Shown: positions 6,843-64,000 of the stretch, in pieces | How positions within the stretch are numbered: the first letter of the stretch is position 1 | How the letters are laid out: each line of letters begins with the position of its first letter | Virus record (IMG/VR): IMGVR_UViG_3300029319_000006 | Coordinates: 62,001 to 126,000 of that record | DNA: 64,000 nt | Origin: a virus | Strand: one strand, 5' to 3' | Translations under genes and position numbers: made by a program | Notes under the pieces: generated by a model | Told to the model about the DNA's origin: nothing | Database searches by the model: none | What the model saw: the letters and a program-made list of their open reading frames with translations, nothing else

Positions 6843-9800
6843 CTATGAGATTATTTGTTTAACTGGTTTAATATTAACTGTTCCCATCCCAGCTGCTCTT
6901 GTAAATTGTAATCTAATATTTGCTCCAGATACATCTGCAGATAATGTTCCTATATCACTATCATTTTCAAATGAACTTACCATACCATATTCAGCAAAAG
7001 AAACTGTTGACTTATTGTAAGTAACAAGTACCTTGGATACTTGTGATGCATCTATAACATCTTCTGACATATGAACTGTATACTCTATAGACATAAAATC
7101 TGAGTTGTGAGGAGTAGTATCAACAATAACTCCAGATCCAGATGTAGCTTGTACAAGTGTTGGAGTTGAACTTATAGATCCTAATGTATTAACTAAACTA
7201 TTTACTGTAGGACTTGCAGATGAATCAATATCTATTCTTCCTCCTGCAGTTAATGTAATACCATTACCTCCAGAAAAATGAGCTTTAACTTCAGCAGCAC
7301 TTGGTCCTGTATATGTAAATTTTCCAGATGCTGAATCATATGTCATAGATCCATCACCACCAGCGTCTATTAAACTAAACGCTTCTCTAGATCTCTTTTT
7401 AGTATAATCACTATCAAATAATGTAGTAGTAAAATTTCCACCATCAGCAGTGTTGATTGCAAACACTCCTGTAGCTGAATCAAAACTAATATTACTAATA
7501 CCAGCAACATCAATAAGACTTGCACTATCTATTTGACCTTGAGCATTTATTTTTATTCTTGGAATTTTAGTTCCTGATCCATAATGACCAGCTACCACTC
7601 CAGTGTTAGTAATACTTAAAGTATTAGATGCAGAATCAAAACTTAATCCTGTACCATTTAATGTAGTTTCATCTAATGCATCATTAAAGTCTGAATCAAA
7701 ATTAGCCTTTGTATAAATTGTTTCTACATCAAAGGAAAATCTTCCTAATGAACTATCATATGATAAATCTCCTCCTGCAGAAAAATAACTTCTTGGATTA
7801 TTACCTAATGATCCTACTAGAATTGTTCCTGTTGCATCAGGTAATTTTATAGTTCTTGCAGCAGTTGGACTATCCCAATCTAAAATACATTCATGTATTG
7901 AATTTTTATTATTATTCCATTCTAGATATTGATCTCTATGAAATACTATTCTATTATCATGGAAAACAGTATTAAGATGTATTCCTTCATCTTCAACAGA
8001 AATACTATTACCCATGGCATTTCCATGAGTAGTACAATAATATAATAAACTATCTGGTGCATTTAATGGTACAGCAAATACAACAGAAGCTCCTGGATTT
8101 CCAGCTACACCATTGACAGTAACACCAGTTGTATATGGATTTCCACTACCATCTTTAAAAGCTAATGGATGAGTACCATTAGTTCCAGCACTTTGATCAA
8201 ATGTATATGTAACACCTCTTTTTAGAGTTATAACTGGATTAGTTACACCATCTAGTACAAATTTGTTACCACCACTGCTTATAACTGTAACCACAAAAGT
8301 AGTTGAACCTGAAAAAGCACCTGATTTATTTACATTTAATTCAATACTACCTTCTTCTGATCCATTAGTAGTAGTTATAATAGATCCATTTATTGAACTA
8401 TATAATTGACTATTTCCTGAATCATCTTTTCCATAAAAGTTAATTCTTCCTAAAGTGTCTCCTGGAAGAGGAGAAACAGAAGTTCTATAAAGATCAAAAC
8501 TTGGAGATGCAATCCCTGATGCTTCATCAGAAATTAATTCCATATTAGTAAAATCACTAAATTGGTTTCCACCTTTTACCTTTAAGGATTCTTTACCACC
8601 AATAGTAAATTTAACTTCATCATCAGAACTAACTTCCATAATTGTATCACTATCAGCATCAAGAATAAATTGATTGCCTTTGATATTAACAGAACTATTT
8701 CTAATAATTTTACCATTTCGTCCAGCAGCAAGATCTTTATCAATAAAGTATAATGATAATTGAGATGAATCTATACCAAAAACTCCATTACTATCTTTAG
8801 TAACAGGAGAAGTTGTTGAAAAATGAGATCTTACTTCTAATGCAGTTGGACCATCATATGTAATAACACCAGTTGTAGCATTATAATTTAATGCTCCATC
8901 CCCCCCATTATCAGTAACACTAATAGCATTCTTAGCATCACTATCTGCTCTTGTAGAAAGATAATATAAATTTGTTCCCTCTGAAACATCTGATGTACTA
9001 TGAAAAGAAAGAAGATTAATATCTCTTCTTAATGGTCTATTGAATACCCAAGCTGCATCACTATGACTGTATATTAATGAAGCTCCAGATCCACCTAAAG
9101 TTAATCCACCATCATTACTAGCAGCAGAGTCTACAGCTGAATCGGCTAGTACTATATTTTTATCTTGTAAATTAACAGTAGTGGAATTAATCTGTGTTGT
9201 TGTTCCTTGTACTTGAAGGTTACCAAGAATTTTAACTGAACCAGTATTAGCATTATAAGCAGCTGGATCAATAATTAATTCAGCAGGACCTCTTAATGCT
9301 CCAGTTAATGTCACTTGGTTGAAAACTGGATTGGATGCAGAATCTAAAGGTTGTGGATTTTTGAAATTACCAGTTGTACTATCATAAAGTAAAGAATTAC
9401 TTGCAGAAAAATGTTTTCTTGTTTCATCTGCACTTGGTCCAGTGTACGTAAATATAGCATTGACACTATCATAAGAAAATGATCCATCACCTCCAGCATC
9501 ATTAGCAGAAAAAGCTGGTTTAACTGCTGCAATAGCTCTAGCATTAGAAAAATATAAATTAGTAGAACCTTCAGCTAAACTATCTGTAGTATATGCATCT
9601 AAAGTTGGAAAAGCTGATAATATAGTTCCTGTAGATAATTTTAAATCTAATCTACCTAATGATGGTTCATATCCAAAAGAATCAACTGTATTAGCTAATA
9701 CATTACTAGCTCCAGTAACAATACCTTTACTGTTTACTGTTATTAATGGAATTTGTGTTCCAGAACCAAATGTTCCAGGAGTAATTGCTTGTATTGGAAG

Positions 9801-10148
9801 TTTTATACTTGCTGGACGAGGAAATGCTTGACTATCAGCTTGAAAATCTGCACTATCAAATGTAATAGCGTGTTTTAAGTTGTCTTTTAATACTTGTCCT
9901 GCAGGATAAAAACCAAATTTTTGCCTATCAGAATCCCATCTTATTAAGTAAGAATAATTTCCTGGAGCAAACGCTTGACCTGATGCAATAGAATCAGATC
10001 CAGCTTTTGCAAAAAGCATTGCTCCATCTACATCATCTAAACCAGTTAAATTTCCATTAGAAACTTGACCAACACCGACAGGCCTTCCAATAGTAACTTT
10101 TTTTATAATAGTATTTTTCTTAATACTAGCATTAGCATTAGTTGCCAT
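6843..10148 (-). CDS. Giant fibre protein with embedded cupredoxin-like domain
   Basis: This 1101-residue protein carries three copies of the GGDGS/Y.GPS/EVR.HF module (DNA near 9420-9510, 8820-8930 and 7280-7380). Around residues 608-721 there is a separate domain that looks like a blue-copper (cupredoxin) fold. It has a YTFDQSAG strand, THPLAF (His ligand), then YYCTTHGNAMGN with the Cys, His and Met of a type 1 copper site in the canonical order. The C-terminal 70 residues have a different beta-sandwich-like sequence. The gene starts 14 bases after the 115-residue protein. The fibre role is inferred; the copper site is a motif-level prediction. Confidence 0.78.
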   Translation of the reverse strand: MATNANASIKKNTIIKKVTIGRPVGVGQVSNGNLTGLDDVDGAMLFAKAGSDSIASGQAFAPGNYSYLIRWDSDRQKFGFYPAGQVLKDNLKHAITFDSADFQADSQAFPRPASIKLPIQAITPGTFGSGTQIPLITVNSKGIVTGASNVLANTVDSFGYEPSLGRLDLKLSTGTILSAFPTLDAYTTDSLAEGSTNLYFSNARAIAAVKPAFSANDAGGDGSFSYDSVNAIFTYTGPSADETRKHFSASNSLLYDSTTGNFKNPQPLDSASNPVFNQVTLTGALRGPAELIIDPAAYNANTGSVKILGNLQVQGTTTQINSTTVNLQDKNIVLADSAVDSAASNDGGLTLGGSGASLIYSHSDAAWVFNRPLRRDINLLSFHSTSDVSEGTNLYYLSTRADSDAKNAISVTDNGGDGALNYNATTGVITYDGPTALEVRSHFSTTSPVTKDSNGVFGIDSSQLSLYFIDKDLAAGRNGKIIRNSSVNIKGNQFILDADSDTIMEVSSDDEVKFTIGGKESLKVKGGNQFSDFTNMELISDEASGIASPSFDLYRTSVSPLPGDTLGRINFYGKDDSGNSQLYSSINGSIITTTNGSEEGSIELNVNKSGAFSGSTTFVVTVISSGGNKFVLDGVTNPVITLKRGVTYTFDQSAGTNGTHPLAFKDGSGNPYTTGVTVNGVAGNPGASVVFAVPLNAPDSLLYYCTTHGNAMGNSISVEDEGIHLNTVFHDNRIVFHRDQYLEWNNNKNSIHECILDWDSPTAARTIKLPDATGTILVGSLGNNPRSYFSAGGDLSYDSSLGRFSFDVETIYTKANFDSDFNDALDETTLNGTGLSFDSASNTLSITNTGVVAGHYGSGTKIPRIKINAQGQIDSASLIDVAGISNISFDSATGVFAINTADGGNFTTTLFDSDYTKKRSREAFSLIDAGGDGSMTYDSASGKFTYTGPSAAEVKAHFSGGNGITLTAGGRIDIDSSASPTVNSLVNTLGSISSTPTLVQATSGSGVIVDTTPHNSDFMSIEYTVHMSEDVIDASQVSKVLVTYNKSTVSFAEYGMVSSFENDSDIGTLSADVSGANIRLQFTRAAGMGTVNIKPVKQIIS
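7985..8325 (-). other. Cupredoxin-like domain inside fibre protein
   Basis: The segment encodes a roughly 110-residue plastocyanin-like unit: VITLKRGVTYTFDQ, THPLAF, then YYCTTHGNAMGN. In cupredoxins the ligands are an upstream His and a C-terminal Cys-x(n)-His-x(n)-Met cluster, and all four are present. Boundaries are approximate. A second unit of the same type lies in the 985-residue fibre protein. Confidence 0.7.
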
Positions 10149-10162
10149 GCTCTCTCCTTAAA

Positions 10163-10510
10163 TCATCTTGTAACCGACGGGTTAACTATTATTTGACCTT
10201 CTAAAACTCTTTCAATAATATTATTACCATTACTATCTTGATTTGTAATTTCAACATCATAAACATATCTACTAGCTGTAAAAGAAGATGTTTGTTGATT
10301 AGTAAGTGTTAAGTTCAATATACCTGATGATCTTGGTGCTTGAAACATAACAGAAAAAGAAGTTGCAGAATCATTACTATGTGTTCTTCTAATTTTAGAC
10401 GCTGCAGTAAATCCTGTTAAATCTTTTACTGAACCATTTTGATTTGCTAATTCTAATTTTAGAGTGACATCAGAGCCTTGATCTATTGAAATATCTTCAT
10501 ACTGCGCCAT
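10163..10510 (-). CDS. Small beta-sandwich virion protein
   Basis: This 115-residue protein starts MAQYEDISIDQGSDVTLKLE and contains DLTGFTAASKIRRTHS and YVYDVEITNQD. The pattern is an immunoglobulin-like beta-sandwich common as a small hypothetical or structural protein beside fibres of marine phages and as the N-terminal part of baseplate-upper-type proteins. A TATAAATA late promoter lies about 36 bases upstream, so this is the first gene of a late fibre operon running left to at least position 1. Exact role unknown. Confidence 0.65.
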   Translation of the reverse strand: MAQYEDISIDQGSDVTLKLELANQNGSVKDLTGFTAASKIRRTHSNDSATSFSVMFQAPRSSGILNLTLTNQQTSSFTASRYVYDVEITNQDSNGNNIIERVLEGQIIVNPSVTR

Positions 10511-10545
10511 TTTTAAAAAACTCTTAGTTTAGTTACTTTTTCCAT

Positions 10546-10553
10546 TATTTATA
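10546..10553 (-). promoter_or_regulatory. T4-type late promoter (TATAAATA)
   Basis: A perfect TATAAATA octamer on the minus strand, followed by TGG and a 36-base leader to the ATG at 10510. It overlaps the stop codon of the glycosyltransferase ending at 10549, so it re-initiates transcription inside the late block. Confidence 0.7.
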
Positions 10554-11226
10554 AGAAATATTTTTCTAATCCTTGATACATGTAAGATTGTTCCTGACAA
10601 ATTAAACAAAGAGTTTTTCTAGGATCATGTGCCAAATGATTTTTCACATACTTGTAGGGTGTTGCATCATTTTTCCATCTGAAATAATAATCATAATCAA
10701 ACTTTAAGTATTTACAAATTGATAAATGATTGTAAGAAAGATATCTATCCAAACCACTATATTTTATCATATAGTAATCTTTATTATCAATAAAGTTTTG
10801 AAATACATGTGTCAAGGTTTTTGGATACATTCCAATAACAGAAGTGTTTATTTTTGCATCAAACTCCCATAAAATATCCTGATGATGTTGAAGATCAGGA
10901 TTAATAGTAAGAATTTTGTTTGGTTGAATTCTTTTCAATATAGAATCTATAGAATTTTGTATTACAATGTCTAAATCAAAATATAAGGTTGGAGAATTCC
11001 AAGGTAAGTTAAACAGTTGAATCTTCCACCAAAAAGATTCTAAGTCTAAACTTAAATCCAACGGAATTGGTCTTAGTTTCCAATCTAACAAATTATCATC
11101 TGTTAAGCAATAAAAAGAAAATGGTAGGGAACAATTTTTCTCTACCATTTTATAAAGTCGATCTACTCGATCTGAAGTATACTTTGTACCGTATTTAATG
11201 CATACTATATTATAATGGGTTTTCAA
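10549..11226 (-). CDS. GT-A-fold glycosyltransferase-like protein
   Basis: This 225-residue protein has an N-terminal Rossmann-like strand (HYNIVCIKYG), then KIQLFNLPW and YFDLDIVI with a DxD pair at D84 and D86, the usual metal and nucleotide-sugar site of GT-A enzymes. Its order of elements resembles the transferase at 54,884 (W.K..lF...vYlDlD), so the two may be paralogues. It overlaps the preceding oxygenase-like gene by 17 bases and belongs to the late operon headed by the tyrosine-rich fibre gene. Donor and acceptor are unknown. Confidence 0.72.
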   Translation of the reverse strand: MKTHYNIVCIKYGTKYTSDRVDRLYKMVEKNCSLPFSFYCLTDDNLLDWKLRPIPLDLSLDLESFWWKIQLFNLPWNSPTLYFDLDIVIQNSIDSILKRIQPNKILTINPDLQHHQDILWEFDAKINTSVIGMYPKTLTHVFQNFIDNKDYYMIKYSGLDRYLSYNHLSICKYLKFDYDYYFRWKNDATPYKYVKNHLAHDPRKTLCLICQEQSYMYQGLEKYFL

Positions 11227-11896
11227 GATCTTCTATGACCTCCTCCCAAAAATTATCTGCATCTTTAAATACGTATGCTACAGTTATTCTATAACAATTT
11301 GTATAAGCTGCATGATAACAAATTTTTTCTGGTTCCATATAGCTACCAAAATAAGTCATTTTACAATTCCAACCTTTTTGATCCTGTACACGAACTCTTT
11401 CTTTTTTATCTAAATCCCAATAATCAAACCAACCATCTCCTGTTTCAGACCAAGAACAAATAATGTTGTACCCAGGAGCATTAGCATTATTGTGCCAGGA
11501 AATAAATCCTCCAGGTGGATATGCAGCATTCAAAGCATTGTTGTTTGCAGATATAAAAGAAATAAGTTTAGTATTTAAATCTTTAGATGCATTACATATA
11601 TCTTCATGTGCTCTTTTATTCATAGGAAGTTTTTCTTGATCTTGCCATTTAAGTCCTGTATATCCTCTAAGAACTGCAGGAAAACCATCGTGAGCTCTAC
11701 CTTCACGCATAATTTTATTCATATAATCATCAGACACCCAATCTTCTTGTTTTTGTTCAAAATTACTTATTTGTGCTTTATTAGCAATAGCTGGTTTTCC
11801 ATTATCTTGAATAGTCATTAATTTATCTTTATATTCATCCAATATATCAATAAATTCTTGATTATTTAATTTTATATCTCTCACTGGTGTCATCAT
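11210..11896 (-). CDS. Putative 2OG-Fe(II) oxygenase-like protein
   Basis: This 228-residue protein contains PPGGFISWHNNANAPGYN (H135, N137), a DGWFDYWD turn and CYHAAYTNCYRITVAYVF (H195, R203). This matches the jelly-roll order of 2-oxoglutarate oxygenases (H-x-D/E, distal H, then R), except that the acidic metal ligand appears as Asn. That could mean a variant metal site or loss of activity. AAGGAA stands ten bases before the first of two adjacent ATGs. It sits between two glycosyltransferases in a late fibre operon, so a virion-modifying role is possible. Family assignment is moderate. Confidence 0.55.
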   Translation of the reverse strand: MMTPVRDIKLNNQEFIDILDEYKDKLMTIQDNGKPAIANKAQISNFEQKQEDWVSDDYMNKIMREGRAHDGFPAVLRGYTGLKWQDQEKLPMNKRAHEDICNASKDLNTKLISFISANNNALNAAYPPGGFISWHNNANAPGYNIICSWSETGDGWFDYWDLDKKERVRVQDQKGWNCKMTYFGSYMEPEKICYHAAYTNCYRITVAYVFKDADNFWEEVIEDLENPL

Positions 11897-11897
11897 T

Positions 11898-12704
11898 TTA
11901 CAAAATTCCTTTCTCGCTATACTTATCCATTCCAGAAGAATAATGATGTATTATAGGATGTTTAGAAGCATAAACATTTGGTTGAGTCCAGGGTAATCCA
12001 AAAGAACTATAATAATTCCATCTATAATTTTCTTCAAAAAATTTCCATTTGAGTTCTTTATATTTTGGTGAATGCCACAACAACCACCATAAAGTAAGTT
12101 GATCCCAAATCCAAAAACTTTTAGGAACTTCTTGTATCTCTATTGGTAATTCTATTGCAGCTCTTTGTTTTAAATATACATTATACCAATCCATCATAAA
12201 TTGTTTTACTAATGGATTAGTATTATTATATAAACAAACTCCTCCACAATGAGTAAGATGTTGAGGATTAGAACCAGTATATCCATTATCTAATGTATTT
12301 TCCCCCCATGACCATTCAGCAAAATGTCTAGCACCCTCTTTAGTAAGATTAACAAATCTCATATCATAGTTTTGTATTTGATCAAAAACTGTACATATAT
12401 CTTCATGGACTACTTCCATATCCACATCTAAGTACATAGTAATATCATATGGAGAATTTGCCATACCCCACATTTTTTCTCTGTTAGTACTTCCAGGTGT
12501 TGGTAAAATTTTATCGTAAGGAGTAAATAAAGTTTTTAAATTTTCATCTTCTAAAAAAAGTTTTTCTGTAAACAGAGTAATTTTAGCATCTGGCATATAA
12601 TCTAAAATAGTTTCTGCTAAAAAATATCCAGCTTTTAAAAAACTTTCAAATTTTGTAGCTACAAATACAAATCCTTTACTTAGATTCTTCTGATTGTTCA
12701 CCAT
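11898..12704 (-). CDS. GT-A-fold glycosyltransferase
   Basis: This 268-residue protein begins with GFVFVATKFESFLKAG and AKITLFTE, then has MYLDVDMEVV with D93 and D95 as the DxD motif. HCGGVCLYNN and SFWIWDQLTLWWLL follow as acceptor-side segments, and IIHHYSSGMD ends the core. This layout is that of GT8-like GT-A enzymes. It overlaps the 152-residue gene by 29 bases, so it is translationally coupled to it, and it is in the late operon downstream of the 985-residue fibre gene. Substrate unknown. Confidence 0.78.
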   Translation of the reverse strand: MVNNQKNLSKGFVFVATKFESFLKAGYFLAETILDYMPDAKITLFTEKLFLEDENLKTLFTPYDKILPTPGSTNREKMWGMANSPYDITMYLDVDMEVVHEDICTVFDQIQNYDMRFVNLTKEGARHFAEWSWGENTLDNGYTGSNPQHLTHCGGVCLYNNTNPLVKQFMMDWYNVYLKQRAAIELPIEIQEVPKSFWIWDQLTLWWLLWHSPKYKELKWKFFEENYRWNYYSSFGLPWTQPNVYASKHPIIHHYSSGMDKYSEKGIL

Positions 12705-13134
12705 TCATATTTTCCATTAATAATATAGTTGCATAAGCATTCAATTCAATAGTGTTTTTTGCTTTTCTTATTTTACTTTTTAATTTTCTATTATCAGATG
12801 CTTTTATTTCAGGTATCTCAAAAGCTGCTAATTTGTAATTAAAAAGTTCTTCAAGACGTTTAGTTTCCATAAGCTCTTTGTCTTTTTTTATTTTAGCTTC
12901 ACGTTGTTGCTTATGCCTTTTTAATCTTTCTTCTGTAAAAGCATCAATCTGTGATAATGAATTTTGTTTTAAGATTTCTTCATAATCAGTAGATATAACA
13001 CCTTTTTCATCATATTTGGAAACTTTTGCAACGCTAGTAGAAAACGATCCATCATCATGTGTAATATTAAGACGGACTGTCAATCTATCTTTCGCTGCAT
13101 TTTCCCAAAATGGATGTTTCCATTCTTTCTTCAT
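12676..13134 (-). CDS. Coiled-coil protein beside fibre gene, possible assembly factor
   Basis: This 152-residue protein has a short beta-rich N-terminus (RLTVRLNITHDDGSFSTSV) followed by a charged helical segment (TEERLKRHKQQREAKIKKDK) and a lysine-rich C-terminus. I associate this architecture with small proteins next to fibre genes in marine phages. An assembly or chaperone role is a guess from position: it lies 9 bases after the 985-residue fibre gene and before glycosyltransferases. No catalytic motif is visible. Confidence 0.6.
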   Translation of the reverse strand: MKKEWKHPFWENAAKDRLTVRLNITHDDGSFSTSVAKVSKYDEKGVISTDYEEILKQNSLSQIDAFTEERLKRHKQQREAKIKKDKELMETKRLEELFNYKLAAFEIPEIKASDNRKLKSKIRKAKNTIELNAYATILLMENMNGEQSEESK

Positions 13135-13143
13135 TTTTATCTC

Positions 13144-16101
13144 CTATGATATTCTAACGTATAATGTATAAGTTTCTTCAGTTCCACTAGATGCTTGTAT
13201 TGTAGTTCCTTCAAAGTCGGTAAGATATTCTTGTATATATCCTGTTTGATAATCTTGCTCGTAATAAGCAAGAAAGTTAGCTCCATCAAAAAATCCTTCA
13301 AAATCTCCAGCATATAGTTGTACATATGTAGCAACATACTGTTGTGTCTCTCCAACAGTTTCATAAACTGTTTCAAATGTTCCCGTATAATCTCCAGCTA
13401 TTGTACTTATATATCCTGTTTCATAAGGTACAGATTCAAATGTTCCTACATAAGTGCCTGTATAAAGTTTCGTATAATTAGCTTGAAAATAATTGACAAA
13501 ACTTCTTGTATACTGACTAGTGTAATTACGTACATAAGGTGGTCCTATATCTCTAACATAAGCTGGTCCTACTCCTAAATACATCAGACCAGCTGGTTGA
13601 TTCTGAGTATATACTCTTAAATAACCAAAACCAAAATAAGGACTACCAGATCCTGGAGCATACTGACCTCCAGTGAATCCTATAGCACCTTGATATTCAT
13701 TTTGATAGTAAACTAAAGGACCAAAACCAGTAGTAAAATAATTACCTGCATCTTCATTAGTATATGCTACGTTTCCAGTACCAGTAAAACTCTGTGTAGG
13801 AAGTCCAGCGTAAGGTTGAAGATTACTAACATAATCGACTGTTCGTATACCTAAAAATATTCTTACAAAAAATGATGAAAAATTTCTTGCACTTCCACTA
13901 TAAAATACTCTTCTACTTACTCCAAGATACGGGAACCCCACTACATATGAAACAACATTTCTATGATATATAGCATCAAAGACAGGCAAACCACCACCTG
14001 TGGCCCCACTTTGAGTTCCAAAAGCACCAGCTAGATCTGTTCCTGATACATAATAAAGTGGCATAATTACAGTTTGACCAGGTAAAGTTGTGTCGCCATC
14101 ATCAAGAAAATGTCTAACTGGATATCCAGTTCCACTAAGATAATTTGGAGATCCAGGACCACCAGGAAAAAATCTACGTGTATAAATTTCAGGACCTTGT
14201 ACATAAACAGGACCCATAGTTATTTGGCGAACATAGAAAGTAGAAACATTTCTAACGTAATAATTAGTACCTAAATAAAATTCTCTTGTATAAGTAGTTT
14301 CATAATTTGGATAATAATCAGGAAAAATATTAGCTCTTGAATAGTAACTTACATAAAAGAACTCTCCAGTAACAAAATATATCATATTGGCTGCACGAAC
14401 ATAATAACTAGAAGCTCCTGTATAAATATTTCCAAAATTACCTGGAGGTCCTGTTACATAATCTCCAGTTTCAGTAGTTCCATCACCAGGTCCAAGATAT
14501 GCTGAAAATCCAGTATATTGCTGGCCCTGATAATAAGCAACAAAATATGCTGTAAAAGGACGTAAAAAAGAACCAGTATAATTTCTTGCATAATTTCTTT
14601 GATATGATTCTTCCACATCTCTTTCATATGTTCCTGTATATGCTCTTGTATAAGCAGGACCGTCTTGAATACCTCCATAAACTTCTTCAAAAGTTCCTGT
14701 ATAAGCAGCTAGATAATCTTTTTGATATAGTGTATCATATGCTTTTAAGTATCCAGTTTCTCCTGGAATATCTGATTCATCACCACCTTCATATACTCTT
14801 GTATATGTTGCTGTATATTGGTTTGTATATCCTCTAACATAATTAATATTAAATGTGTTAGCAAAAGCTGCTACATATGCAACATCAGTTGTAGTTTTCT
14901 TTGTATCGGTAGCAGAACCTTTTGAAACCCATGTACCGGGATCTGTAGGAGCTCCATCTCCAGAAGTCCTTAGTTGATAAGTTCCAATTTTGCTATCTTG
15001 TATTCTTTTCTGAAATAATTTTCTAAAAGTTCTAGTTGATGCAGAATCCAAATCTCTTATACTAAAAAATTCAGAAGCAGCAGCTTCAGATCTATCTTGA
15101 ACAGTAATGGTGTTTCCCATTCCTTCACCATGAATATAACAAAAGTATCTTAAGCCAGAATCTGGAGCTGATGCATCTATTGTTATTTTTACATATCTTC
15201 TTAACTTACCGTTAGATGTTCCTCCTGAACTACGACCAGCATTAAAAGTTGTTGTATTGATATAATCAGAAGCTGAAACAACAGAACCATTTAAGTAATA
15301 TACAACTCCTGTTTGATAAGCTGATCCTCCATTTTTAAAAACTAGAGGGTGATCATCATTAGTAGAATCAGTCTGATCAAAAGTATAAGTGTTAAGTCTT
15401 TGAGCTGTTAAAGAAGGATTTTGAGCTCCATTAAGATAGTAATAATTTCCACTACCTGGATTTGCTACTGTAACATTAAAATTTATCGAATAAGATTTAT
15501 TAATATAAAGAGGAGCAGCAGAAGTTTGAAAAAATGAACTAGCATTACCAGTTCTTTGCCACACTTTATAATTTACAGTTGTACCATCTGTTTGAGTATC
15601 TGTAAATACAGTTCCTCTATCAGTATATCCTACTCCAGGAGATGCTTCAGAAAGTTTATAAGTTCCTAAACCATCATTAGTAAATGTATAAGTTAATGCT
15701 TTATCAATATTAGCATTGAGATCTGATTCTGGTACTTGTTTAAATCCAGTTTGTCCACCTCCATCAACCCACATTAATGGTCTGTATAAAGATAAATCTG
15801 AATCTTCCATAGCATAAGAAGAATCATATCTTTGATAAAGTCTGTAAGTGGTAGAGCCAGAGGTTATGCTTGTTCCAGGAGCTGTACCAACTGGTTCATT
15901 AAAAAATGTATCGGTAAATGTACCAACATCATTATATTTTCTACTACCAATTCTTTTAGTAGTAAGACGACCAACTTCATTAGAATCAGCTAAGCCAACG
16001 TATTCTAATAAATTAAAATATCCAAAATATTTACCGACTTCGGTATCGGTCATTTCTTTGATGCTTGTACCGCTACCGTCTCTTCTAAGTAAATTGCCCA
16101 T
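13144..16101 (-). CDS. Tyrosine-rich repeat fibre protein with cupredoxin-like domain
   Basis: This 985-residue protein starts MGNLLRRDGSGTSIKEM. Residues 1-200 form a possible attachment region. Residues about 204-334 resemble a cupredoxin (YTFDQT, DDHPLVF, then YFCYIHGEGMGN with Cys, His and Met in canonical order). From about residue 412 to 967 tyrosine or phenylalanine occurs every four residues over long runs, as in YVRGYTNQYTATYTRVY. I counted about 80 tyrosines there. It heads a late operon (TATAAATA about 37 bases upstream) that also encodes a coiled-coil protein, two glycosyltransferases and an oxygenase-like protein. A fibre role is inferred. Confidence 0.78.
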   Translation of the reverse strand: MGNLLRRDGSGTSIKEMTDTEVGKYFGYFNLLEYVGLADSNEVGRLTTKRIGSRKYNDVGTFTDTFFNEPVGTAPGTSITSGSTTYRLYQRYDSSYAMEDSDLSLYRPLMWVDGGGQTGFKQVPESDLNANIDKALTYTFTNDGLGTYKLSEASPGVGYTDRGTVFTDTQTDGTTVNYKVWQRTGNASSFFQTSAAPLYINKSYSINFNVTVANPGSGNYYYLNGAQNPSLTAQRLNTYTFDQTDSTNDDHPLVFKNGGSAYQTGVVYYLNGSVVSASDYINTTTFNAGRSSGGTSNGKLRRYVKITIDASAPDSGLRYFCYIHGEGMGNTITVQDRSEAAASEFFSIRDLDSASTRTFRKLFQKRIQDSKIGTYQLRTSGDGAPTDPGTWVSKGSATDTKKTTTDVAYVAAFANTFNINYVRGYTNQYTATYTRVYEGGDESDIPGETGYLKAYDTLYQKDYLAAYTGTFEEVYGGIQDGPAYTRAYTGTYERDVEESYQRNYARNYTGSFLRPFTAYFVAYYQGQQYTGFSAYLGPGDGTTETGDYVTGPPGNFGNIYTGASSYYVRAANMIYFVTGEFFYVSYYSRANIFPDYYPNYETTYTREFYLGTNYYVRNVSTFYVRQITMGPVYVQGPEIYTRRFFPGGPGSPNYLSGTGYPVRHFLDDGDTTLPGQTVIMPLYYVSGTDLAGAFGTQSGATGGGLPVFDAIYHRNVVSYVVGFPYLGVSRRVFYSGSARNFSSFFVRIFLGIRTVDYVSNLQPYAGLPTQSFTGTGNVAYTNEDAGNYFTTGFGPLVYYQNEYQGAIGFTGGQYAPGSGSPYFGFGYLRVYTQNQPAGLMYLGVGPAYVRDIGPPYVRNYTSQYTRSFVNYFQANYTKLYTGTYVGTFESVPYETGYISTIAGDYTGTFETVYETVGETQQYVATYVQLYAGDFEGFFDGANFLAYYEQDYQTGYIQEYLTDFEGTTIQASSGTEETYTLYVRIS
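13200..14865 (-). repeat. Tyrosine tetrad repeat region (aromatic-x-x-x)
   Basis: About 555 codons encode degenerate four-residue repeats with Tyr or Phe at each first position (for example YTRAYTGTYERD and YLKAYDTLYQKDYLAAY). At DNA level this is an imperfect 12-base periodicity around TAT/TAC. The repeats are cleanest at both ends (near 14,600-14,865 and 13,200-13,550) and more diverged, with glycine and proline, in the middle. Confidence 0.8.
15098..15490 (-). other. Second cupredoxin-like domain in a fibre protein
   Basis: The encoded segment has a YTFDQT strand, DDHPLVF with a candidate His ligand, and YFCYIHGEGMGN with Cys, His and Met. It parallels the domain at 7985-8325 element by element, including the GMGN/AMGN end. 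Compared with that copy it has an insertion between the His and the Cys-His-Met cluster. Boundaries are approximate. Confidence 0.68.
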
Positions 16102-47085: not shown

Positions 47086-47652
47086 TTACTTTTTCCAGAT
47101 CCAGGCAACTAGTGCATCTCTGGTTCCTTTATTTATTTGATTAACTTTATGGAAAGTTCGTGAATCAAAAAATAATGTTTCTCCAACTTCCAAAGGTACG
47201 GGATGAACACCTTGATCATTTCCTTTAATCCAAAATTCACCACCGGATAAATCATCACTCTTAGATAAAATAGTAGAAGTAGAAAAAATTCTTCTTAACT
47301 TTTCTCCAGGTTGATCAATAGCATCACGATGCATTTTAAAAAAATCTCCTTGAACATACTTTATGTATTGAAGCTCACCTATCTTGTATTGATCTTTAAA
47401 CAGAGAATCATTCCATAAAGGAATTATATCTAAAATTTGATTACACAAATTAGGATAATTTTCTGGTATAACTGGAGCTATAACACATTTTCTACTAGAA
47501 GGATTAACATAACTATTTTTTTGTCCTGTTTGTTCATTATAGTTTACTACAGTTCCAGGACGAAAATCCAAATTATCAGATATTAGTCGTTTAATATCCT
47601 CAGTACTTATTTGTTTTCTTTTTATATAAAGTTTTTGTAAATCATATTCCAT
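47086..47652 (-). CDS. 2OG-Fe(II) oxygenase, prolyl-hydroxylase type
   Basis: This 188-residue protein has YVQGDFFKMHRDAID with H108 and D110, then LSGGEFWIKG and ETLFFDSRTFHKV with H168, and GTRDALVAWIW with R178. This HxD...H...R order in a jelly-roll setting is the P4H/2OG-Fe(II) oxygenase active site, with R178 as the 2-oxoglutarate anchor. Phages often carry such genes; the substrate (protein or nucleotide) is unknown. Transcription order is gp33, this gene (1-base gap), then gp32. Confidence 0.85.
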   Translation of the reverse strand: MEYDLQKLYIKRKQISTEDIKRLISDNLDFRPGTVVNYNEQTGQKNSYVNPSSRKCVIAPVIPENYPNLCNQILDIIPLWNDSLFKDQYKIGELQYIKYVQGDFFKMHRDAIDQPGEKLRRIFSTSTILSKSDDLSGGEFWIKGNDQGVHPVPLEVGETLFFDSRTFHKVNQINKGTRDALVAWIWKK

Positions 47653-63662: not shown

Positions 63663-64000
63663 TAACATCCTCCATTAATTGTTTAATATTTTCTCCTCTA
63701 TTAGGCAATAAATCTTTCAAAAAGAAATGTACAAAATTGCATTCGTTTATTCTAGTATTAGCAGTATACAACCCATTCCATTTCCAGTCAAGGTTTTTTA
63801 TTTTCATGTTTTCTTCTCTAATCCATGTATTAAGAAGTGTCTGATCTGTCGACCATTTCCATGCTCCTTGACCATCTATAAAATCTTTAAACCTAGGTCT
63901 TCTTAAAAACTCTGTAGGTGTTTGACCTTTTAGATATGGAAGTATTGATTGGTTCATAACCATTACACCCATATTCATAAACTCACCACCTAATTGATTC
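63652..64000 (-). CDS. Glycosyltransferase-like protein, N-terminus beyond window
   Basis: The frame is open to the window edge and begins with NQLGGEFMNMGVMVMNQSIL here, so the start lies beyond 64000. STDQTLLNTWIREENMKIKN and LDWKWNGLYT, followed by FVHFFLKDLL, resemble the C-terminal half of GT-A transferases (the nmGVmv, DQ..LN and FvHf blocks). The first 9 codons at its 3' end overlap the epimerase gene. The catalytic DxD would be outside the window. Confidence 0.62.
   Translation of the reverse strand, partial: NQLGGEFMNMGVMVMNQSILPYLKGQTPTEFLRRPRFKDFIDGQGAWKWSTDQTLLNTWIREENMKIKNLDWKWNGLYTANTRINECNFVHFFLKDLLPNRGENIKQLMEDVNGS

Follow-up and report, generated by a model that had tools for sequence, protein, structure and literature searches.

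How is a viral fibre built when its sequence returns to a tyrosine or phenylalanine every four residues, and what part do the genes beside it play? The question is posed by a 64,000-nucleotide stretch of an IMG/VR virus record (IMGVR_UViG_3300029319_000006; the whole stretch is called the window here), in which one open reading frame (ORF) encodes a 985-residue protein of this kind. We examined this protein, its relatives in environmental sequence, and the genes linked to them. The account that we favor, at a probability of roughly 70%, is that the protein would be a giant antiparallel hairpin fibre of a T4-like phage, with dedicated partner and enzyme genes.

A tail operon gene with a four-residue aromatic period

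The ORF occupies positions 13144 to 16101 on the minus strand (read from 16101 to 13144), as indicated by the ORF call, its period-4 statistics, and its family; the coordinates given in an earlier note on this DNA were right. A plus-strand reading of the same interval was ruled out by its many stops. Residues 412 to 967 contain 80 Tyr and 40 Phe. Within this segment, Y/F pairs at a spacing of four residues numbered 57 versus 25.6 expected (z = 7.8), an excess reached in none of 2,000 composition-preserving shuffles. Spacings of 8, 12, and 16 were likewise enriched, and spacing 2 was depleted (4 versus 25.6). The same spacing statistics detected no period 4 in the N-terminal 411 residues. These values bear out the earlier claim of an aromatic residue at every fourth position with some 80 tyrosines. 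The period was also said to extend over about 550 residues; it is real over that span but not continuous. Runs of three or more tetrads cover approximately 38% of residues 409 to 963 and are concentrated at 409 to 523 and 856 to 963, with shorter runs between them and an irregular middle. The suspicion that the repeat belongs to no known family agrees with our searches of Pfam, PHROGs, NCBIfam, BFVD, and PDB, none of which matched it.

The gene is encoded in a tail/baseplate structural operon, with a baseplate wedge protein (phrog_438), a hub/lysozyme protein (phrog_430), a tail fibre (phrog_9017), and a tail assembly chaperone (PF16778) around it. Given these neighbors, the product is most naturally read as a tail fibre, probably located on the tail, of an aquatic T4-like phage, and the original description as a fibre protein is upheld in the sense of a fibre-like structural gene. 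Homology to described fibre families was not found in Pfam, NCBIfam, or PHROGs, and the relatives of the protein likewise had no match there. The records nearest to the baseplate protein were those of phage C48C1 (33%), a Pelagibacter phage (29%), and others, including cyanophages (approximately 26%).

The repeat is inserted between two parts of a terminal module

The domains of the window protein, all on the minus strand, begin with a head of two helix-plus-beta-hairpin modules (modules 1 and 2; residues 1 to 205, positions 15487 to 16101), delineated from the AF2 model and the aligned family (A5/A6). AF2 pLDDT was mostly 71 to 94 in blocks up to residue ~200, and the matching head of a short relative (L014) reached ~90 or more for most blocks. 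An inserted cupredoxin-like domain with the motif H...C-x2-H-x3-M follows (residues ~205 to 340, positions 15082 to 15489). This insert was recognized by tblastn, in which it matched cyanophage gp7 and also the neighboring fibre gene at 6843 to 10148. AF2 confidence was low across it, and the fibre of relative L003 lacks it. The sole PHROGs match of the whole fibre lies here (70 amino acids, phrog_30742, E = 6e-5); tblastn of the entire fibre against phages also returned mostly this insert, the low-complexity repeat being masked by BLAST. The domain is common to the window fibre, the gene at 6843 to 10148, and gp7 of Prochlorococcus phage P-HM2, which carries the motif variant C-x2-H-x2-M. Baseplate and fibre proteins of phages may thus include a copper-binding site.

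The first half of module 3 (residues 341 to 408, positions 14878 to 15081) has GTWV at residues ~389 to 392, with W391 as an anchor, and AF2 pLDDT of 83 to 96 at residues ~351 to 400. We propose this segment as the base of a hairpin. On the tetrad map, proposed arm 1 spans residues 409 to 660 (positions 14122 to 14877), the hairpin itself being carried over from the family, and proposed arm 2 spans residues 716 to 967 (positions 13201 to 13956). The proposed tip between them (residues ~661 to 715, positions 13957 to 14121) is centered at residue ~688 by its midpoint from the base anchors. The C-terminal strand, ending in TYTLYVRIS (residues 968 to 985, positions 13147 to 13200), is conserved in the family and would return to complete module 3; AF2 pLDDT was 96 to 97 at the very C terminus. 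The N-terminal part of the protein comprises three related modules, of which modules 2 and 3 share GTWV...DT...LW.RT. In module 3 of short family members, GTWV...DTR leads into the tetrads, and SLWLRTA follows them at the extreme C terminus. From this order we infer that the repeat has been inserted into the hairpin loop of the last module.

The fibre family is common in environmental sequence

We searched IMG/VR with a DNA pattern for Y-T-G-x-[YF]-x3-Y-T-G-x-[YF]-x3-Y, used in place of tblastn. At least 120 stretches matched, nearly all of which hold an ORF with a strong period of 4, up to ~3,700 amino acids in length. A scan with the linked glycosyltransferase GT268 (see below) detected at least 80 loci, some on contigs that overlap the pattern set. 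Among the matches listed, the fibre family was present in nearly 200 fetched loci, and the pooled scans gave 227 tetrad ORFs (130 nonredundant) containing 12,220 tetrads. Among 50,697 phage records, phage C48C1 (Kyanoviridae), whose fibre has 3,347 amino acids, was the only carrier of the 152-amino-acid, GT268, and oxygenase genes described below. Two contigs assigned to bacterial genome bins hold the fibre and module genes; both are probably misplaced phage contigs.

The consensus of the 12,220 tetrads is [YF]-[TSA]-G-[NDT], a composition rich in Y, G, and T, with 0.4% Pro and 1.1% Lys. In-phase sites flanked by aromatics are occupied by Y (58%), F (28%), R (4%), and W (1%), and G, T, and N are almost excluded there. 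Arginine is the commonest nonaromatic replacement in phase (e.g., YARTRATAY in L017, L171, L172, and other relatives). One member, L158, which was found via its linked glycosyltransferase, has Y at only 10% of its tetrad starts. L153 and L173, in the same gene slot, have two tetrad arms of 17 residues separated by a long insertion at the tip; NYAGPT (period 6) and NYLGEASGAV (period 10) repeats make up this insertion and keep Y-x-G but not the spacing.

Among close relatives, 34 of 64 indels inside tetrad regions were multiples of four residues, versus 19 of 85 outside (binomial P = 1.4e-6, with events not fully independent). Total fibre lengths often differ by 8 residues, equivalent to 4 per arm. 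The idea that a 12-base period permits expansion and contraction is supported for the family by these indels. In the window, TRF detected no tandem repeat at the DNA level in the fibre gene and no remaining 12-base tandem repeat.

Arm symmetry and covariation support an antiparallel hairpin

Period alone gives a chain no direction, and a fibre-like protein from a phage group that has such fibres could carry its tetrads as an ordinary repeat rod (a beta-solenoid, triple beta-spiral, or similar) with the C terminus distal. In the clean subfamily, however, the repeat has the properties of an antiparallel hairpin. Members with a single interruption (n = 28; arm lengths, 17 to 77) have equal arms (r = 0.989), with a difference of exactly 4 in 19 of the 28. 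The mean absolute arm difference was 3.75, versus 29.4 for a randomly placed interruption, for which the smallest null value was 18.2. Interruptions are also matched between the arms, for example in L017, L109, L006, and L112, where those of arm 1 and those of arm 2 face each other and lie equally far from the tip. When 68 long members were taken together, their mirror correlation exceeded that of shifted controls (combined P = 1e-7); by this crude test, most of these members taken singly have no significant mirror symmetry, and many have irregular arms, as a rod would allow.

Residue identities across the arms gave the same register from base and tip. With registers anchored at the tip, opposing aromatics were identical (Y:Y or F:F) in 230 of 276 pairs versus 187 ± 5.9 expected (z = 7.4), and no excess was found at shifts of ±4, ±8, or ±12. 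With anchors at the base (GTW and the C-terminal LW/LY) and no use of the tip, 249 of 268 pairs were identical versus a null value of 193.6 (z = 9.9) at one of eight in-phase registers, the remaining registers giving z between −3.5 and 1.0. In L014, the base- and tip-derived registers coincide (constant, 580). In the cross-arm register, Gly opposes Gly, and T, S, N, and A occupy the other face. Counts for R as a cation-pi partner opposite Y were small and had no single-register specificity. A mirror relation within a protein points to antiparallel pairing, which can create one; direct DNA duplication cannot. A rod with constant-offset pairing predicts neither equal arms, nor matched interruptions, nor mirrored Y/F covariation, yet all three were found, and we consider such a rod quite improbable. 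The earlier expectation of a regular aromatic-stacked beta structure survives in part: aromatic-paired beta structure fits, and its best explanation is one giant antiparallel hairpin, not an open repeat rod.

The same data leave little room for an unstructured, low-complexity drift of a Tyr-rich segment. Biased composition (rich in Y, G, and T) and slippage-like growth are what drift would produce, but the strict phase, the spacing-2 depletion, the use of R and W as in-phase replacements, and the covariation at a single register are not; the covariation test refutes drift at the family level, and we find this explanation hardly credible.

Structure predictions bear mainly on the base. The AF2 model of L014 had a mean pLDDT of 85, with values of 42 to 59 over most of its tetrad blocks. 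The models of both L014 and the window protein return the C-terminal strand to the N-terminal modules with pLDDT above 95, a packing read from confidence values and strand assignments and not from coordinates. Foldseek with the L014 model, whose repeat part was modeled with low confidence, gave no PDB or BFVD match at E ≤ 0.001, a result that speaks weakly against a rod of a known fold; most of the weak, nonsignificant PDB matches (E ~ 0.6 or worse) were to stems of pore formers and to FliF ring proteins, and these fit a hairpin. The arms might instead pair between chains, arm 1 with arm 2 of the next subunit, in a domain-swapped multimer. All of the mirror evidence fits this arrangement equally well, the base is the common starting point of both arm ends, and trimers are the usual state of phage fibres. 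Nonetheless, the single-chain AF2 models close the base hairpin within one chain with high confidence, and we regard a swap as unlikely. An antiparallel hairpin is strongly supported by these sequence patterns as the form that the repeat of the clean subfamily would take.

The window fibre belongs to a more irregular subfamily

The window fibre falls in a second, more irregular subfamily whose C terminus reads TYTLYVRxA. Covariation in this subfamily peaks at the expected register, with z of only 1.8. Three members (L116, L153, and L173) have equal arms, and in L152, L064, and L147 the breaks are mirrored. In the window fibre itself, the mirror symmetry of the breaks is modest (r = 0.46, P = 0.046), and the computed hairpin center, residue 688, falls inside its largest nontetrad gap. 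Its AF2 model had a mean pLDDT of 50 and values below 50 over nearly all of both arms. A hairpin is likely in the window fibre too, with weaker direct support than in the clean subfamily.

A putative assembly partner and putative modifying enzymes are linked to the fibre

Directly downstream of the fibre on the same (minus) strand lies a gene for a dedicated 152-amino-acid partner (chap152; 12676 to 13134), a putative assembly chaperone or adaptor. It was present directly downstream of the fibre in 90 of 93 testable tetrad loci. Profile comparison of its family with the upstream tail assembly chaperone revealed no convincing relation, and no conserved stretch was found in the family for use in an IMG/VR profile search. 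The next gene (GT268; 11898 to 12704, minus strand) encodes a GT-A-type glycosyltransferase with a DxD motif and was found in 83 of 86 testable loci. Its D93 and D95 were invariant in 26 sequences. GT8/Nucleotid_trans-like Pfam matches were weak, occurring in 4 to 5 of the 26 members (best E = 3.5e-4 to 1.4e-3) and not in that of the window; the GT profile had nothing significant in PDB.

GT268 is followed by OXY228 (11210 to 11896, minus strand), which resembles 2OG-Fe(II) oxygenases and was found in 73 of 78 testable loci. Enzymes of that class have an HxD/E...H metal triad and a distal R. In a 28-sequence alignment of OXY228, H135, N137, H195, and R203 (H135-x-N137...H195...R203) were invariant, so that Asn stands where the known enzymes have Asp or Glu. 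OXY228 had no 2OG-oxygenase match in Pfam and no profile match in PDB. A second, ordinary 2OG-Fe(II) oxygenase (PF13640, above the cutoff) is encoded at 47086 to 47652 of the window. Beyond OXY228 lie a second DxD glycosyltransferase (GT225; 10549 to 11226, minus strand; phrog_1962 glycosyltransferase, E = 8e-11) and a conserved 115-amino-acid gene (10163 to 10510, minus strand). A GT8-like gene is also located near 63757, at the right end of the window. In L003, two radical-SAM-like genes, judged from Cys motifs by eye, follow the module at 10162 to 12560.

The linkage is reciprocal. Starting from GT268 loci, chap152 was found in 77 of 77 and OXY228 in 74 of 74, and a strongly tetrad-periodic ORF lay directly upstream of GT268 in 70 of 77. 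Of the other seven, two contain Y-x-G repeats of irregular spacing, and in four of the last five a tetrad ORF lies at another place in the locus. Across 28 GT clusters (60% identity), chap152 was linked in 28, OXY in 25, and a tetrad ORF in 26. Part of this linkage reflects general synteny, because the 115-amino-acid gene has a homologue in 111 of 202 loci.

These enzymes might act on the host surface or on another virion protein, since host-recognition regions collect such genes. A role in modifying the host O-chain has been proposed for the glycosyltransferases, mostly GT8, that pelagimyophages encode in the corresponding region, their host recognition cluster (PMC7029224). In favor of such a role, GT225 paralogues in relatives often stand in tandem on the opposite strand. 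Two to four tandem GT225-like genes lie past the oxygenase, on the strand opposite to the fibre, in L210, L017, L089, and L122. Against a host-surface target, the order fibre-chap152-GT268-OXY is retained at the frequencies given above although the module proteins of relatives are only ~23 to 53% identical to those of the window, the linkage holds in both directions, and none of the 202 loci has a relative of either of the two genes that lie immediately upstream of the window fibre. We consider a target other than the fibre rather unlikely. Judging from the linkage, GT268 and OXY228 are likely to modify the fibre.

The earlier note had suggested that the operon's two glycosyltransferases and oxygenase-like gene might modify the tyrosines. 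The association of the enzymes with the fibre is tight, but a specificity for Tyr is weakened by the residue frequencies at in-phase sites and is not favored because F replaces Y freely and L158 has so few tetrad-initial tyrosines; Tyr as the sole or main acceptor is doubtful. Tyr modification as the reason for the period was rejected on the same free use of F.

A proposed construction and its relation to known systems

What is visible in the sequences is the period, the arm symmetry and cross-arm covariation of the clean subfamily, and the gene linkage. In the construction that we propose, three small N-terminal modules would form the base of the fibre, and the beta-hairpin loop of the last module would be enormously extended, running out along arm 1, turning at the tip, and returning along arm 2 until the last strand, LYVRIS, completes the base module. 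Aromatics would face aromatics (Y:Y, F:F) and glycines would face glycines, making a cross-strand aromatic ladder on one face, with T, S, N, D, and A on the other. Each matched step in length would add or remove four residues in both arms. A fibre would consist of several such chains, probably three, packed together, and the next genes (assembly partner, glycosyltransferase, and oxygenase-like enzyme) would most likely fold and decorate it. The odds seem to us even for a wider claim, that this is an undescribed class of viral fibre, mostly of uncultured aquatic T4-like phages, in which one giant antiparallel beta-hairpin (arms of perhaps up to 1,500 residues) with an aromatic-pair ladder grows in matched four-residue steps and is coinherited with its assembly partner and with hydroxylating and glycosylating enzymes.

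Triple-helical or solenoid repeats usually determine how long a phage fibre is, and the C terminus lies at its tip. A ribbon that folds back so that its two ends meet at the base would, if true, follow a different construction rule, one that covariation between the arms reveals from sequence alone, and would offer a natural way to design aromatic-paired beta ribbons that can be extended. Because of its strict link to a glycosyltransferase gene and an oxygenase-like gene, the fibre is a concrete case in which modification of phage fibres can be tested. The family is common in environmental sequence and nearly missing from described phages, and a single host in culture would make it accessible to experiment. 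Tail fibres are a known class; what appears to be new is the repeat, together with its folded-back construction and the enzyme module fixed to it. Such a repeat was described nowhere in the open literature searched, a scope that most subscription papers and bioRxiv preprints fall outside.

Long tail fibres of the T4 gp34-37 type are trimeric beta structures. The window protein resembles them as a large, repetitive, beta-rich product of a T4-like baseplate/tail fibre operon with adjoining chaperone-like genes; it differs in its four-residue aromatic period, in a repeat with no sequence or fold match to theirs, and in a C terminus that would return to the base, leaving no distal tip. In Trp-zipper and other beta-hairpins with cross-strand aromatic pairs, too, aromatic residues on the two antiparallel strands face one another directly. 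In those designed peptides the hairpin has few residues and uses W, whereas the arms here range from 17 to probably hundreds and use Y, F, and R. Pore-former stem hairpins and the FliF ring protein share with the proposed fibre a very long amphipathic antiparallel hairpin rising from a globular base. Those matches were nonsignificant and without sequence similarity, and the Y-x-G-x period, which is not known from pore-former stems or FliF, and the phage tail operon set the present family apart.

Collagen-type repeats have Gly at every third residue, with Pro and Lys as acceptors. A collagen-type hydroxylated repeat was ruled out here by the period of 4 and by the scarcity of Pro and Lys in the tetrads. 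The collagen system, including the mimivirus hydroxylase and glycosyltransferase enzymes (PMC9546862), is nevertheless similar in coupling a short-period fibrous protein to an oxygenase and glycosyltransferases; it differs in forming a triple helix where beta structure is proposed here, and the enzymes of the two systems have no detected homology. The pelagimyophage host recognition cluster (PMC7029224) likewise combines GT8-like phage enzymes with a variable structural region in T4-like marine phages. In contrast to that cluster, the GT268 family is strictly tied to a single family of fibres, and C48C1 was its only carrier in the phage records that were searched.
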